A stretch of DNA of 39,330 bases. It comes from Candidatus Woesebacteria bacterium RIFCSPLOWO2_01_FULL_39_61 (GTDB lineage: Bacteria > Patescibacteriota > Microgenomatia > UBA8517). Positions 6,054 through 38,448 of this stretch are shown here, piece by piece. Both the position numbers and the translations under genes were made by a program. The stretch covers positions 1 to 39,330 of the forward strand of contig MGHI01000004.1 of the NCBI GenBank assembly GCA_001793155.1. The letters are read 5' to 3'. The stretch's first letter is position 1, and each line of letters starts with the position of its first letter. Below the pieces are notes generated by a model. The model did no database searches. It was not told the origin of the DNA and saw nothing but the letters and a program-made list of their open reading frames with translations.

Positions 6054-6094
6054 GTATATTCACATTCACCGGTTTTAGCTTTAGACTAATTTAA
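6050..6094 (+). CDS. Phe-rich 14-aa leader peptide MSIFTFTGFSFRLI (pheM-like)
   Basis: ATG overlaps rplT stop (ATGA); 4 Phe codons; directly upstream of antiterminator/terminator and pheS. Confidence 0.85.
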   Translation: MSIFTFTGFSFRLI

Positions 6095-6148
6095 CCGGTG
6101 GAGTGTGAGAGTCAGCAGTTAACAGCTCTCCACCGAGAGCTTTTTTTT
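6067..6148 (+). promoter_or_regulatory. pheST transcription attenuator (1:2, 2:3, 3:4 pairings)
   Basis: CACCGGTT(6067-6074):AACCGGTG(6093-6100); CGGTGGAG(6096-6103):CTCCACCG(6128-6135); AGCTCTC(6124-6130):GAGAGCT(6135-6141). Confidence 0.85.
6124..6148 (+). terminator. Intrinsic terminator of the pheST leader
   Basis: AGCTCTC-CACC-GAGAGCT stem followed by 8 T (6141-6148). Confidence 0.88.
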
Positions 6149-6149
6149 G

Positions 6150-6187
6150 ATTTATCGCTTTCTTTTTCCTGAAGAAAGGTAGATAAA
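6150..6187 (+). repeat. Imperfect CTTTCTT...AAGAAAG hairpin upstream of pheS
   Basis: TTTATC-GCTTTCTT-TTTCCTG-AAGAAAGGTA-GATAAA. Confidence 0.5.
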
Positions 6188-7229: not shown

Positions 7230-7240
7230 GTTTTCTTTGC

Positions 7241-7267
7241 CGTTCTTTCTTTTCGAAAGAAAGAACG
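7241..7267 (+). repeat. Perfect 12-bp hairpin CGTTCTTTCTTT-TCG-AAAGAAAGAACG, 7 nt before pheT ATG
   Basis: Read directly. Confidence 0.85.
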
Positions 7268-7274
7268 AGAATGT

Positions 7275-9251
7275 ATGCTAGTCCCATTATCTTGGCTCAA
7301 AGAATATGTCAATATCAAGCTCCCGCTAAAGGATCTGATGTGGAAAATGACCGAAATAGGATTGACCACAGAAACTTATACCAAGCTTGGTGATGACGTT
7401 ATTTTGGATATTGAAGTTACCCCCAATAGAGCTGATTGGTTGAGTATTGTAGGAATCGCAAGGGAACTTTCCGCATTACAAAATACTCCCATGAAATTTC
7501 CCGTAGTATCTGAAATCGCGTCTCCTAAGGCAAATCTTCCTTTCAAAATTAATAATGACTTCAAATTATGTCCCCGCTACAGTGCTATAAGCATTAAGGG
7601 TGTTGTGCAAGCTCCTTCTCCCAAATGGATGCAGGATTATCTTACAAAAATAAGTTTGCGGCCGATAAATAATCTTGTTGATGTAACAAACTATGTCATG
7701 TTCGAATTCGGTAACCCCATACACGTTTTTGACTACGATAAACTCAAAAATGCGGAAATGACAATTATGACCACGAAGGGTGGAGAAAAATTTACCAGTG
7801 TTGATGAAATATCTTATAGATTGCCTAAGGATGCTATTATATTCAAAAGCGGCAGTGAGGTAGTAGACCTTTGCGGCATTAAAGGAGGAGCCAATTCCGG
7901 CGTATCCAAATCAACCAAAAATATACTTATACTGGTAGCAATTTATGACGGAAAATTAATAAGAAGAACCTCACAAAAACTTGATTTACTCTCTGATGCG
8001 TCACGCATTTTTGAGCGCAGAGAGGATACGGGCGGGACGCTTTTGACTCTTCAACGGACTGTGAATTTAATGACTGAGCTGGCGGGTGGCAATATCGCAT
8101 CCGAAATAGCCGATGTCAAAAAAGAAAAATTAAAGCTTTCGAAACTAACACTATCCTTATCTAACTTGGAAAAAGTTCTGGGGATTAAAATCGAAGACAA
8201 GGAAGTCTTAGCTACTCTTGACAGACTCAATTTATCACCGATTCTTAAGAATAATTTGATCGAGTGCACCATTCCGACATATCGAGCTGATTTAAAAATT
8301 GAAGAAGATCTTATAGAAGAGGTCGCAAGATTATTCGGATACAATAAATTCCCGAAAACTTTGCCATACGGTGCAACTCCTAAAGATAAAATCGCCTATT
8401 TTTTTGACCCAAAACCTAAACTGAGATTGAAAGAGCTGATGTTTGGCGCCGGGTTTATTGAAATCCAAACCCTATCCCTAACCTCTGAAGAATTTATTAA
8501 TAAATCTCAGTTAAATCTTGATCTTCATATTAAAATTGCAAACCCGGTGAGCAAGGAATACGAATATTTGCGCACCAGTCTTATTCCCTCGCTACTTTCC
8601 GCGGTCAAATTAAATAGCGACATAAAAAAATTGAAACTTTATGAACTTAATAAAGTTTATTTTGGCCCGATAGATCAGTCTCAGGAAGTTTATAAACTAT
8701 CGGGATTAGAAGTAAATACTAGCTTTAGGAAATTTAAGGCAAGTCTGGATTTAATCTTCGATCGGCTTAAGGTTAAAGATTATGATATCAAAATAACTAC
8801 AGTTACTAAATCTCTCTGGCATCCTACAAAAAGCGGGGTAATTGAAAAAGGTGATGAATTTATCGGAACTTTCGGTGAAATTCACCCGAAAGTATTGCAA
8901 AACTTTAAAATAAAGGAGAAAGTTTGGGGTTTTGAGCTTGATGAAAAAACCCTGGAAAAACTCACAAAAAAGATTATATACAAAGCCCCTAACCAGCATC
9001 CTCCTCAGATAGAGGATATAACACTAATAATACCTGATTGGGTTAAAGCTTCGGGTGTTATCGCAACAATTAAAAAATCCGATACGCATGTTTCCGAGAT
9101 AGAGTTAACCGATATATATCAAAAATCACACACATTCAGGATTTGGTACCAGGATCCTAAAAAAACCATGTCTGATAACGATGTAAAGATAATCCACAAC
9201 AAAATTCTGTCGAATCTTAACAAAAAATTCGAAGTAAACGAGAAGATATAA
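7275..9251 (+). CDS. pheT: Phenylalanyl-tRNA synthetase beta subunit (short form)
   Basis: MLVPLSWLKEYVNI, DIEVTPNRADWLSIVGIARELSAL, LRPINNLVDVTNYVMFEFGNPIHVFDYDKL, C-terminal FDX-ACB-like region. Confidence 0.94.
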   Translation: MLVPLSWLKEYVNIKLPLKDLMWKMTEIGLTTETYTKLGDDVILDIEVTPNRADWLSIVGIARELSALQNTPMKFPVVSEIASPKANLPFKINNDFKLCPRYSAISIKGVVQAPSPKWMQDYLTKISLRPINNLVDVTNYVMFEFGNPIHVFDYDKLKNAEMTIMTTKGGEKFTSVDEISYRLPKDAIIFKSGSEVVDLCGIKGGANSGVSKSTKNILILVAIYDGKLIRRTSQKLDLLSDASRIFERREDTGGTLLTLQRTVNLMTELAGGNIASEIADVKKEKLKLSKLTLSLSNLEKVLGIKIEDKEVLATLDRLNLSPILKNNLIECTIPTYRADLKIEEDLIEEVARLFGYNKFPKTLPYGATPKDKIAYFFDPKPKLRLKELMFGAGFIEIQTLSLTSEEFINKSQLNLDLHIKIANPVSKEYEYLRTSLIPSLLSAVKLNSDIKKLKLYELNKVYFGPIDQSQEVYKLSGLEVNTSFRKFKASLDLIFDRLKVKDYDIKITTVTKSLWHPTKSGVIEKGDEFIGTFGEIHPKVLQNFKIKEKVWGFELDEKTLEKLTKKIIYKAPNQHPPQIEDITLIIPDWVKASGVIATIKKSDTHVSEIELTDIYQKSHTFRIWYQDPKKTMSDNDVKIIHNKILSNLNKKFEVNEKI

Positions 9252-15644: not shown

Positions 15645-15731
15645 TATCGTCTTTTTTTGGGTTCCATCTTGCACCAGAGTGCCTATATCAGTTACAATTC
15701 CAATGATCTTAACTGAATTTAGTTTCTTTGA

Positions 15732-15757
15732 CTCACTTTCTTTCAAAAGAAAGTGAG
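15732..15757 (+). repeat. Hairpin CTCACTTTCTT-TCAA-AAGAAAGTGAG, 8 nt before rpmF ATG
   Basis: Perfect 11-bp stem, same core as the pheT and hppA hairpins. Confidence 0.85.
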
Positions 15758-15765
15758 AAACGATT

Positions 15766-15927
15766 ATGACGCCGTTACCCAAGAAAAAACATACCAGAAG
15801 TCGAAGCAATATCAGGAGAAATTCTCCGGCGCACAGGATGAGTCTGCCGAATTTGAGCCAGTGTCCCAGCTGCGGCAAACTCAAAGAATCGCACAAAGCT
15901 TGTCCCTATTGTGGTTTTTATAAATAA
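15766..15927 (+). CDS. rpmF: 50S ribosomal protein L32 (53 aa)
   Basis: MTPLPKKKHTRSRSNIRRNSPAHRMSLPNLSQCPSCGKLKESHKACPYCGFYK; L32 N-terminus and zinc-ribbon CxxC pair; missing from supplied ORF list. Confidence 0.92.
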   Translation: MTPLPKKKHTRSRSNIRRNSPAHRMSLPNLSQCPSCGKLKESHKACPYCGFYK

Positions 15928-19148: not shown

Positions 19149-19163
19149 CTCTTATTTCTTTAC

Positions 19164-19193
19164 CACACTTTCTTTTTTTGCAAAGAAAGTGTG
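19164..19193. repeat. Hairpin CACACTTTCTTT-TTTTGC-AAAGAAAGTGTG at the pilM 3' end
   Basis: 12-bp stem with the CTTTCTTT/AAAGAAAG core. Confidence 0.8.
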
Positions 19194-19200
19194 AATCAGG

Positions 19201-20214
19201 TTATTCCCTCATGGCTAGACCCACTGCTATAGAATATAGCGGTGCGTAGCCGGCAAGCTGGGTTACAGCTTGAGGATCCACACTAACCTTTGAAAAAGGG
19301 TTTCCGACTATTACTTCTATACCTAGAAGCTTTGTGAGTGTGGAAGCAGCTTCCGGCATCCCGGCTGTTCCTCCGGCTAAGATAGCGGATGTAGGCGAAT
19401 CTCCTTTTTCTTCCGACTGATAAAAATGAATGGCTTTCTTCATTTCGTCAGAAACCACCCTAAAAACCGGGTCAAGAGCTTGTTTTACTTTTCCTTCAAG
19501 TTGTGTGGCTGAAAGACCGTAAGTTCTTTTGTATTCTTCAGCCTGCGTTTCATCGACTCCTAAAAATTGCGAAACAGCCCTGGTAAAAGCCTCACCGGCT
19601 GTAGGGATGGAGCGGGAGAAAACGAGTGTTCCGTTTTTTGCAATAGCAATATCCGAGGACCTAGCCCCGAAATCAACAATCATGCTCGATTGGTCCATCG
19701 GAGCCAAGCTCCTTACCAATGCCATCAATTCCGTTTCTATCGTAGTAAGATTCATACCCGACATTTCGACGGCGCGTGCGTATTTTTCAACCAAAGCCTT
19801 GGGTGCTGCAACAAGAAGAACCACTACTTGGGGTGGAGTAGTATCTTCTCTTCTTTCTACAATCTGGTGTTGTATTATGGCTTCGTTTGCCGGGATAGGA
19901 ATATATTGCTCAGCCTCCCATTTTACAGCCGAGGCAACCTCTGCATCCGTCAAGAGAGGGAACTTTATCGTCCGTGTATAAACTTGGGTTTCGGGGAGTG
20001 CTATAATCACTTCTTTTGACGAAATTTTTGCATCTTTATGCAGTTTTCTAATCGCTTCGGTTAAAATTACAAGTTCCTTTTCGTCTTTACTTTGATCGGG
20101 TGTTTTACCTTTATGCCCAACAATACCCGAGGCTCGGAGACTAAATCCTGCCCCTTGTTTAACAAGTTCAACCATCTTAATAGTTTTCGTACCGATATCA
20201 AGTCCTACAGACAT
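19201..20214 (-). CDS. pilM: PilM-like actin-fold pilus assembly ATPase
   Basis: VGLDIGTKTIKMVEL, VKWEAEQYIPIP, IVDFGARSSDIAIAKNG, AILAGGTAGMPE. Confidence 0.9.
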   Translation of the reverse strand: MSVGLDIGTKTIKMVELVKQGAGFSLRASGIVGHKGKTPDQSKDEKELVILTEAIRKLHKDAKISSKEVIIALPETQVYTRTIKFPLLTDAEVASAVKWEAEQYIPIPANEAIIQHQIVERREDTTPPQVVVLLVAAPKALVEKYARAVEMSGMNLTTIETELMALVRSLAPMDQSSMIVDFGARSSDIAIAKNGTLVFSRSIPTAGEAFTRAVSQFLGVDETQAEEYKRTYGLSATQLEGKVKQALDPVFRVVSDEMKKAIHFYQSEEKGDSPTSAILAGGTAGMPEAASTLTKLLGIEVIVGNPFSKVSVDPQAVTQLAGYAPLYSIAVGLAMRE

Positions 20215-28289: not shown

Positions 28290-28375
28290 ACAGGTGAAAG
28301 GTGAATGGTAAAAGGTAAAAAACTGACATAAAGTCCTTGCCTTTTACCTCTTGCCTTTTACCTCTTGCCTTACTT
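28290..28375. repeat. Palindromic heptad array (AAAAGGT / CTTTTACCTCTTGC)
   Basis: GACAGGT GAAAGGT GAATGGT AAAAGGT ... CTTGCCT TTTACCT CTTGCCT TTTACCT CTTGCCT. Confidence 0.75.
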
Positions 28376-36147: not shown

Positions 36148-36175
36148 GTATAGAAATTTGTTTTATTTTCATTGC

Positions 36176-36202
36176 CAAACTTTCTTTATTAAAGAAAGTT
36201 TG
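36176..36202 (+). repeat. Perfect 12-bp hairpin CAAACTTTCTTT-ATT-AAAGAAAGTTTG, 8 nt before hppA ATG
   Basis: Read directly. Confidence 0.85.
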
Positions 36203-36210
36203 AATTAGTT

Positions 36211-38448
36211 ATGAATGAACTTTCGCAATTAGAGCAAACGATGCTCTGGGGAGTAATCGGAGTGGCGCTAACATCTTTAATCTATGCCTATTGGCTTTGG
36301 AAAGCGACAAAGGCAGAAGACAAAGGTAATGCCAAAATGCAGGAGGTGTGGAACGCAATTAAAAAGGGGGCAGAAGGCTACCTCAAAAAGCAACTGCGAA
36401 CGATAATTTTTGTACTTCTCTCCTTGACCATCGTTCTTTTCTTGAGTGTATATGTAGTTCCGCCATCTGCCGAAGCATTTGCCAGATTCGGTAAAAGTGC
36501 TACTTTGGTCGTGGCATTGGGAAGAACTGCAGCTTTCATTGTCGGAGCAGCTTTCTCAACTTTGGTCGGACAACTGGGAATGCGTGTTGCAATTGAAGCC
36601 AACGTCAGAGTTACAGCCAAAGCTCTCAAAGGAAGTTATAACGGCGCCTTAACCGTAGCCTATAGAGCCGGAACATTTACCGGAATGTTAACGGACGGTC
36701 TCGGACTATTGGGGGGAACTGTAATTTTCATGCTCTTCGGTAAGGCTGCTCCCGACGCACTTCTCGGCTTTGGTTTCGGAGGAACACTTGTTGCGCTTTT
36801 TATGAGAATAGGCGGAGGAATCTATACCAAAGCGGCTGACGTCGGAGCTGATCTGGTAGGAAAAATAGAGAAAAATCTTCCGGAAGACGATCCCAGAAAC
36901 GCCGGAGTTATTGCTGATCTGGTAGGAGACAATGTCGGAGACTGTGCGGGGATGGCGGCCGATATTTTCGAGAGCTACGAAGTAACAATAGTTTCAGCAC
37001 TAATTCTCGGACTGGTCCTCTTTCATTTGACCGGAGCAACCTTCTGGATAGTATATCCTCTGGTAGTTCGGGCAATCGGTGTACTATCTTCGATAGTCGG
37101 GACATTGGCTGTTCCTACCTGGGAAAAGATATCAATTAAATTTTTGAGGGCAAAGGATGCGGAAGAAGCAATGTTTAGAAGCTACGAACTTTCAAGTTTG
37201 ATTACCATTCTCTTCTCTTTCGCATTCGCTTTGTTTTACGCGGGCGAGTGGAAACTAGCTCTTCTTAACGCAGTCGGAATCGGACTCGCAGTAGTTTTTA
37301 ATCCACTAACCAGTTACTTTACATCTCATAAATTCCGACCCGTAAAGGAAATTGTCGAATCAACCAAATCAGGTAGTGCAACCACAATTCTTTCGGGACT
37401 TGCGACGGGAATGGAATCAAGCGTATGGAGCGTTTTTGTAATTGCAATCGCACTAGCATTGAGTTACTTGATCTATTTCGGAATGCCGCCAATTTATATG
37501 CTTTACGGAGTTGCCATGATAGGAATAGGGATGCTTTCTCTTACAGGCAACAACGTTGCCATGGACGCATTCGGACCGATTGCCGATAATGCAAACGGAA
37601 TAGGAGAAATGGCCGGAGTGGGGAAATCGGCTTGGAAGATAATGGCCGATCTGGACGCCGTAGGAAATACAACAAAAGCAATTACCAAACAGCTAGCGAT
37701 TGCTTCAGCAGTTGTTGCTGCAACAGCTTTGTTTTTCTCATTTGTTACCGATATTGGGATTGTACAGACGCGTCTGGGTCTTCCCGTACTTTCTGCAATC
37801 CGGATATCCACCTTAGATACGGTAATAGGATTTCTTATTGGAGGATCACTTCCTTTCCTTTTCTCTTCATTTTCAATTAAGGCCGTTGCTCGCGCGGCAA
37901 CCAAAATAGTCAAGGAAGTAAGAGCGCAGTTCAAAAGACCCGGAGTCATGCAAGGCCGTGTTAAGCCTGAGTATGATAAGGTTGTAGCTATAACAACAGC
38001 AGCCGCACAAAAGGATCTTGTCAGTCTGGTTATTTTGGCAGTTACTCTGCCTTTGATAGTTGGACTTATATTTAAAGTCGAAGCTCTCGGAGCATTTTTG
38101 GCCGGCGTAATTTTGGTCGGCCAGCTAATGGCTGTATTTATGGCTGTTTCGGGAGGAGCACTGGATAACGCCAAAAAGTATATCGAAGACGGGTATCTCG
38201 GAGGCAAGGGGTCCGACGCTCATAAAGCCAGCGTCGAAGGTGATACTTTCGGAGACCCCCTTAAAGATACTGCAGGGCCTGCCTTAAACCCGATGATTAA
38301 AGTTGTCAATTTGATAAGCCTGATCGCAGCCCCCGTAATTGTTCAGTATCAGGGTCGAACTGGCTCATGGATTGCGGCAATTTTACTTATCGGACTTTTT
38401 GTCTGGGCATTAAGACAAAGCAAAACCCAAGTCTTAGCAGCTAATTAA
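36211..38448 (+). CDS. hppA: Membrane-bound proton-pumping pyrophosphatase (predicted K+-independent)
   Basis: GGGIYTKAADVGADLVGKIEKNLPEDDPRNAGVIADLVGDNVGDCAGMAADIFESYE, DLDAVGNTTKA, GDTFGDPLKDTAGPALNPMIKV. Confidence 0.96.
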   Translation: MNELSQLEQTMLWGVIGVALTSLIYAYWLWKATKAEDKGNAKMQEVWNAIKKGAEGYLKKQLRTIIFVLLSLTIVLFLSVYVVPPSAEAFARFGKSATLVVALGRTAAFIVGAAFSTLVGQLGMRVAIEANVRVTAKALKGSYNGALTVAYRAGTFTGMLTDGLGLLGGTVIFMLFGKAAPDALLGFGFGGTLVALFMRIGGGIYTKAADVGADLVGKIEKNLPEDDPRNAGVIADLVGDNVGDCAGMAADIFESYEVTIVSALILGLVLFHLTGATFWIVYPLVVRAIGVLSSIVGTLAVPTWEKISIKFLRAKDAEEAMFRSYELSSLITILFSFAFALFYAGEWKLALLNAVGIGLAVVFNPLTSYFTSHKFRPVKEIVESTKSGSATTILSGLATGMESSVWSVFVIAIALALSYLIYFGMPPIYMLYGVAMIGIGMLSLTGNNVAMDAFGPIADNANGIGEMAGVGKSAWKIMADLDAVGNTTKAITKQLAIASAVVAATALFFSFVTDIGIVQTRLGLPVLSAIRISTLDTVIGFLIGGSLPFLFSSFSIKAVARAATKIVKEVRAQFKRPGVMQGRVKPEYDKVVAITTAAAQKDLVSLVILAVTLPLIVGLIFKVEALGAFLAGVILVGQLMAVFMAVSGGALDNAKKYIEDGYLGGKGSDAHKASVEGDTFGDPLKDTAGPALNPMIKVVNLISLIAAPVIVQYQGRTGSWIAAILLIGLFVWALRQSKTQVLAAN

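Follow-up and report, generated by a model that had tools for sequence, protein, structure and literature searches.

The hairpins that lie just before pheT, rpmF and hppA in the window, by which we mean the whole 39,330 nt stretch of Candidatus Woesebacteria DNA analysed here, are probably copies of a non-autonomous mobile DNA repeat, one strand of which would be capable of forming an intrastrand triplex and whose hairpin side sits at gene edges. The closest known kind is that of the intrastrand-triplex repeats PIT/BoxC, from which this family differs in being A/T-rich and class IV and in having an additional stem. The window holds four copies, at pheT, rpmF, hppA and positions 19164-19193, and a TTTCTTTG tag that an earlier, sequence-only reading had not mentioned is found 5' of every hairpin. 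The parts of the copies, and one further hairpin that was set apart from them, are as follows.

7232-7239, plus strand: tag TTTCTTTG of the pheT copy, the proposed third strand, its class assigned by covariation
7241-7267, plus strand: hairpin CGTTCTTTCTTT-TCG-AAAGAAAGAACG of the pheT copy, 7 nt 5' of the pheT ATG at 7275
15723-15730, plus strand: tag TTTCTTTG of the rpmF copy
15732-15757, plus strand: hairpin CTCACTTTCTTT-CA-AAAGAAAGTGAG of the rpmF copy, 8 nt 5' of the rpmF (bL32) ATG at 15766
19155-19162, plus strand: tag TTTCTTTA of the fourth copy
19164-19193, plus strand: hairpin CACACTTTCTTT-TTTTGC-AAAGAAAGTGTG of the fourth copy, model E=4.8e-11
36167-36174, plus strand: tag TTTCATTG of the hppA copy, with one mismatch
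36176-36202, plus strand: hairpin CAAACTTTCTTT-ATT-AAAGAAAGTTTG of the hppA copy, model E=1.2e-10, 8 nt 5' of the ATG at 36211 of hppA (H+ pyrophosphatase)
6150-6187, plus strand: imperfect hairpin before pheS, judged by model and fold tests not to be a member of the family

The positions of the pheT, rpmF and hppA hairpins, the perfect pairing of their arms and the gene names were all as the sequence-only reading had given them. The set of copies was incomplete, since the fourth perfect copy had been overlooked; it adjoins no start, and its hairpin side lies 7 nt from the stop codon of a minus-strand pilM-like gene (19201-20214). The pheT copy was recovered by the covariance model described below (match 7231-7275, E=3.5e-9) even though it had been held out of that model. 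The pheS hairpin, which had been put forward as a weaker version of the same family, gave no plus-strand model match at E<=1, and its fold was weak (z=-1.99, with 7 of 200 shuffles equally stable). The pheS leader itself, at 6055-6150, folds far better than its shuffles (z=-5.2), with a long stem CACCGGTT..AACCGGTG, a competing stem CGGTGGAG..CTCCACCG and a terminator AGCTCTC-CACC-GAGAGCT-T8; from its predicted folding it looks like a transcription attenuator of pheST, and it had no Rfam match. At 28292-28370 there is also an inverted repeat, long and imperfect, built from AGGTGAAAGG-type units (AGGTGAAAGGTGAATGGTAAAAGG / CCTTTTACCTCTTGCCTTTTACCT).

The 1.08-Mb genome to which the window belongs (G000) was surveyed by pattern and model searches and in selected stretches. 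The core pattern CTTTCTTN{2,12}AAGAAAG matched five times in the window, against 0.01 matches expected from dinucleotide shuffles, and CTTTCTTTN{2,10}AAGAAAG gave 19 forward matches in the whole genome, against 0-1 for the reversed control. A covariance model built from 15 copies, with pheT held out, found approximately 22-25 copies in the tagged orientation genome-wide. Each unit consists of the tag TTTCTTTG, a short spacer and a 12-bp stem, in which a core with a pyrimidine left arm (CTTTCTTT) and a purine right arm (AAAGAAAG) is flanked by variable, strictly complementary outer pairs; the spacer between the tag and the core arms is 3-6 nt, outer stem included. The tag was present in all 15 aligned copies from this genome despite being absent from the search pattern, and when seven other genomes were searched with the bare palindrome it lay on exactly one side in 16 of 16 copies inspected. 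Many copies carry the tail GAnTAAGGTTAT after the stem, also where no gene starts, and the unit is only about 47 nt long in the lineage of the window. The earlier statement that no ordinary Shine-Dalgarno (SD) sequence is present was thus only partly correct, as AAGG occurs in the tail of many copies. A second class, comprising four copies in the same genome (L019, L020, L027 and L028), has the loop GGGTAAGC, shares the tag and hairpin, and is not start-proximal. The same class was seen at L119 (G016) and L120 (G014). Its arms are CTTTCTTG..CAAGAAAG and its tag TTCTTTG, and it closes a longer structured repeat in which ATGAGCGA..TCGAAAAA is shared, away from gene starts.

Complementarity of the stem was strict. 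In the 15 aligned copies all 180 cells of the 12 pairs were Watson-Crick, with three variable outer pairs, 19 double changes and no G-U; none of 500 shuffles paired as well, and no slid register came near. The rpmF copy has an orthologous copy in another genome (L100 in G012), which differs from it by a compensating change of T-A to C-G. Across phyla, 224 elements showed Watson-Crick pairing in 87-96% of outer pairs 1-3 and 69% of pair 4, with pairs 5-6 at background, and G-U was rarer than a plain mismatch in the outer cells (16 versus 43 of 672). Since the pairing is strictly Watson-Crick and G-U is rarer than mismatches, the stem resembles a palindrome in DNA more closely than a helix in RNA. 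Selection on the stem, as originally proposed, is borne out, and it extends to a third strand.

The evidence for that strand comes from variants of the element. AAAGAAA is palindromic in the reading direction, and the common form of the element is uninformative as to the register between tag and arm. For the arm CTTTTCTTT/AAAGAAAAG, a direct repeat or an alternative Watson-Crick pairing predicts the tag TTTTCTTTG, and parallel Hoogsteen pairing predicts TTTCTTTTG. Among 2.9 million contigs of a viral collection, the arm CTTTTCTTT..AAAGAAAAG was accompanied by TTTCTTTTG in 15 stretches and by TTTTCTTTG in none. When elements were retrieved without reference to the tag, A3GA4 arms had 17 mirror tags and A3GA5 arms nine, with no direct-repeat tag in either group. 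As the covariation is mirror-only, neither a direct repeat nor an alternative Watson-Crick pairing between tag and right arm was retained as an explanation. In 219 of 228 elements, the T-run that follows the C of the tag was as long as the A-run that follows the G of the arm (reached in 0 of 20000 permutations), and the first runs of tag and arm fell on the same diagonal. Examples of the rare arms A4GA2, A2GA4 and A2GA5 had the tags T4CT2, T2CT4 and T2CT5, and one of these rare matched forms, L043 of G021, belongs to the window's own family and lies in front of groEL. As read from the sequences, such covariation in the mirror (parallel) register is the mark of a pyrimidine-motif intrastrand triplex and, because mirror repeats are not generated by copying, it points to selection on, or a process acting on, the three-stranded fold. 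It would fit the folding of either strand, as DNA or as RNA; the complement would form a purine-motif class II triplex.

A regulator that binds double-stranded DNA at an operator or promoter dyad would account for the dyad symmetry, the invariant core and the position near gene starts, including those of tRNA genes. However, a protein that reads the duplex does not require outer positions to vary and yet stay complementary, mirror covariation between tag and arm would be meaningless for a duplex operator, and copies are also found at gene 3' ends; this is the least credible of the explanations considered here.

In the pan-phylum set, complementarity between the loop and the bases immediately 5' of the tag was enriched (206, compared with 178.9 +/- 6.7 after shuffling; 0 of 2000). 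It occurred in many lineages and was strong in some, for example GCTTGCA/TGCAAGC in L169. In lineages with longer loops, the loop is often predicted to pair 5' of the tag, which would give an H-type pseudoknot with the tag as the groove-crossing loop. The pseudoknot of telomerase RNA is likewise of the H-type and contains a major-groove triplex. The likeness lies in the pyrimidines of loop 1, which would occupy the deep groove of stem 2, itself A/T(U)-rich, and run parallel to its purine strand; it is seen in lineages with a complementary loop and 5' flank. The element differs in being a dispersed mobile repeat instead of a single RNA gene, and the window copies, with loops of 2-6 nt, have no loop-flank stem 1. 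Long loops were observed in L070, L071 and L078 (G009), L083 (G020) and L118 (G039); those of L070, L078 and L071 hold two extra small hairpins (GAGC..GCTC and CGCC..GGCG), whose order is swapped from one copy to another, as though the loop had undergone inversion or had been inserted in either direction.

The spacing of 7-8 nt before the start, reported from the window, fits the start-proximal window copies, and the range widens to 7-10 nt in the family: all 26 near-start copies had a hairpin-to-start-codon distance of 7-10 nt, although single distances may be off by one start codon as ORF calling was simple. The 5' ends of tRNA genes likewise lay 7-10 nt from the hairpin. Protein genes adjoined by the element include rpsT, rpmF, rplA, rplF, nusG, rpsG, rpsL, rpmA, efp, ftsZ, groEL, gyrA and nrdR, and the tRNA genes are those for Leu, Ala, Pro, Arg and Lys. 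Nine near-edge copies, about a quarter of those in the window's family, adjoin the stop codon of a gene on the opposite strand. At starts the mRNA has the sense of the pyrimidine strand, and at stops the pyrimidine strand is the opposite one. The rule common to both situations is that the hairpin side is set against the gene edge and the tag side points away. In gaps of at least 60 nt in this family, the hairpin side lay within 15 nt of a gene edge in 19 of 31 cases, against 3.2 expected, and the tag side in one of 31; in other phyla the corresponding figures were 28 of 80, against 7.5 expected, and four. Random placement relative to starts had been named as the outcome that would overturn the sequence-only reading. 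Placement proved far from random, but the rule applies to gene edges generally and not to starts only. Downstream of one copy, on the minus strand of L008 at about 1230-1300, an apparent 5' half of a tRNA-Glu was observed; ARAGORN reports only a tRNA-Glu (CTC) further on, and the gene is possibly intron-containing or broken.

Evidence of insertion was obtained by comparing relatives. In 21 of the 24 genomes of the family in which it could be read (30 loci, six of them not readable), the gap between the genes for S8 and L6 measures -4 to 23 nt. The window's genome has a gap of 51 nt, made up of the element and its tail ATTAAGGTT; in G009, which belongs to another genus, it is 78 nt and contains an inverted element with its hairpin side against the S8 stop; and in G011 it is 49 nt of unrelated sequence. 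Any match at all was found in 13 of 56 relatives, and a few of these have 10 or more. In another family of the same phylum, represented by G185 and G354, the unit is about 185 nt long, with a structured body ending in the tag and hairpin; two copies in G185 are missing at the same places in G354, a member of the same genus, and 20 aligned copies from this pair have sharp ends and unrelated flanks. These repeats (L508-L533) number tens of copies per genome and have a tandem GACGAG internal loop and covarying stems, with no Rfam family. No target-site duplication was visible in two filled/empty pairs, in which the 3' end was sharp. Because the S8-L6 gap is elsewhere short, filled or filled in inverted orientation, and because copies are present or absent within a genus, these comparisons indicate that the element is an insertion. 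Of the roles first suggested, a mobile palindrome preferring start sites is thus supported: sites occur both empty and filled, one junction carries an inverted insertion, and copies are found in front of tRNA genes and next to opposite-strand stops. An element dedicated to translation initiation or RNA processing is not supported, as copies also adjoin tRNA genes as well as the 3' ends of genes and the strand differs between starts and stops.

A broader form of the latter idea is that an RNA element, either a hairpin or a U.A-U triplex, forms in the 5' leader of mRNAs or pre-tRNAs and controls growth genes through initiation, decay or 5' processing. In its favour, the distance of 7-10 nt is kept at all 26 near-start copies and at tRNA 5' ends, the targets are ribosomal proteins, tRNAs, synthetases, EF-P, FtsZ and GroEL, and pyrimidine-motif triplexes can form in RNA (PMC4666352). 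Some sites (rpmF, rplA, rpmA, efp, ftsZ, a glycosyltransferase and a CYTH gene) are common to different genera, which would also fit a retained regulatory role, and at rpmF the compensating change occurred in place. However, in the quarter of near-edge copies that lie against the end of a gene on the other strand, the mRNA carries the complement, the S8-L6 junction holds both orientations in different genera, G-U is nearly absent (0 of 180 cells in this genome and 16 of 672 outer cells across phyla), and most relatives have no element at the same genes. We consider such an RNA unlikely, and the mobile repeat, which probably acts at the DNA level, is preferred.

No enzyme could be matched to this mobility. 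Movement of the element as a REP by a REP-associated tyrosine transposase (RAYT) would agree with its short palindrome, conserved unpaired end tag and scattered positions near gene ends, and four Y1 transposase genes of 226-251 aa are present in G000. No element copies flank any of these four genes, however, and the tag TTTCTTTG is not GTAG or CGTC. Y1 was missing from 10 of 25 element-bearing genomes, including the 99% complete, high-copy G185, G281 and G197, and from G333 despite its 77 palindromes. Given the Y1 absences and the lack of copies beside the Y1 genes of G000, REP/RAYT mobilisation was rejected, and we regard this explanation as very improbable. Spread by reverse transcriptase was rejected as well, RVT_1 being missing from 11 of 16 element-bearing genomes (among them G000, G009, G012, G017, G281 and G197). 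IVP four-helix-bundle proteins were rejected as mobiliser, being found in 11 of 16 genomes and missing in five, and of 20 IVP loci only one lay within 1.5 kb of an element. The 23S_rRNA_IVP four-helix-bundle gene was itself observed in ten copies (10 loci) in the 1.08 Mb of G000. Genes around the pan-phylum copies showed no common helper family, only scattered unrelated families.

The pattern TTTCTTTG-N4-ACTTTCTTT-N2-14-AAAGAAAGT occurred in more than 112 stretches among the matches listed, from many phyla, some of them metagenome bins whose individual taxon assignments may be wrong. Bacterial hosts among the matches listed were Saccharibacteria, Microgenomates/Woesebacteria, Peregrinibacteria, Campylobacteraceae, Delta- and Betaproteobacteria, Bacteroidota, Lentisphaerota, Gastranaerophilales, Firmicutes, Spirochaetes and Nitrospirae, and archaeal hosts were Woesearchaeota and Thermoplasmatota MAGs. 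Similar repeats presumably also occur as translated 'KKVTKE' tails in proteobacterial annotations, and the related peptide KKVNQR was found at pan-phylum loci, providing a lead for such tails.

The fold class is already known. In the ITxF definition, a class IV intrastrand triplex has a 5' third strand, a pyrimidine arm and a purine arm on one strand, with arms of 6-15 nt, loops of 1-6 nt and one mismatch allowed at 7 nt or more (PMC4666352). The pheT copy has this order and these lengths (TTTCTTT-GCCGT-TCTTTCTTT-TCG-AAAGAAAGA), the hppA copy has one third-strand mismatch, and the parallel third strand (T.A-T, C+.G-C) is matched run for run in the 219 of 228 elements given above, in the mirror register only. 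The same study characterised the G/C-rich BoxC/PIT motif, described BoxC as proteobacterial (262 genomes) and named it a class II purine motif; it reported no associated mobility genes and a link to genome instability, gave A/T-rich motifs only as a bulk class, and cites the earlier work of Hoyne and Maher (2000, 2002) on intrastrand triplex repeats (PMC4666352). Like PIT/BoxC/TM_ECO, the element has three tracts on one strand with a predicted intrastrand triplex and is intergenic, repeated and patchy among relatives; the complement strand of BoxC even has the same order of third strand, N3, pyrimidine arm, loop and purine arm. Unlike the G/C-rich BoxC, it is A/T-rich and class IV with an extra variable Watson-Crick stem, and it is distinguished by its many phyla, gene-edge siting, three-strand covariation and signs of mobility. 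The sequence differs too, as the BoxC/TM_ECO pattern CCCTCNCCC N3-6 GGGNGAGGG N3 GGGNGAGGG is not matched by the element, and in 10 E. coli K-12 copies of BoxC no complementarity was found between the N3 spacer and the 3' flank. GTAG/CGTC REPs (PMC3733652) resemble it in that one end of the palindrome bears a conserved unpaired tag, and in their occurrence in many phyla and near gene ends. They differ in the sequence of that tag and, for GTAG REPs, in the RAYT gene flanked by repeats, which the element lacks and does not appear to need; furthermore, GT pairing is frequent in GTAG stems (PMC3733652), whereas G-U is nearly absent here and the tag matches the arm as a third strand. With MITEs the element shares its short, non-autonomous and dispersed nature and its presence/absence polymorphism, but it has no terminal inverted repeats beyond the hairpin, and no target-site duplication or parent transposon was identified. 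Rfam gave no match at gathering score over the element in the window or the other loci scanned. The literature, searched by sequence and topic and largely outside subscription journals, contained no description of the repeat or of its three-strand fold, and the family itself was not found described.

The palindrome, tag, three-strand covariation, insertion/absence polymorphism, spread over phyla and position of the hairpin side at gene edges are established at the level of sequence, and a mechanism consistent with them can be proposed. One strand would fold so as to bring the tag into the hairpin's major groove, where it would run parallel to the purine arm (T.A-T, C+.G-C), and this folded single strand would be the form recognised by the mobilising or repair machinery of the cell. 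In the window's lineage, the AAGG-TTAT tail would allow copies to land directly before a start codon harmlessly, supplying an SD-like AAGG, and the tail of an inverted copy, directly after a stop codon, would equally harmlessly supply a TAA. The tail may thus make insertion at gene edges harmless, though insertion tolerance alone does not explain the preference for edges in long gaps. More tentatively, and with somewhat less than even confidence, the element may represent an undescribed pan-prokaryotic class of mobile DNA defined by its three-stranded fold, in which machinery that reads the folded strand delivers it to gene edges and a lineage-specific tail carrying start and stop signals rewires the 5' ends of essential genes.

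The case for bacterial triplex repeats has been made from sequence composition and from in-vitro folding of one G/C-rich motif, for which in vivo footprinting gave no sign of stable formation (PMC4666352). Here natural variation shows a third strand conserved with its duplex partner, run by run, in unrelated phyla, which makes its in-vivo relevance directly testable. The element appears to be mobile without the usual enzymes and, as it is held at a fixed distance from starts and tRNA genes, it may alter the expression of essential genes in Candidate Phyla bacteria.
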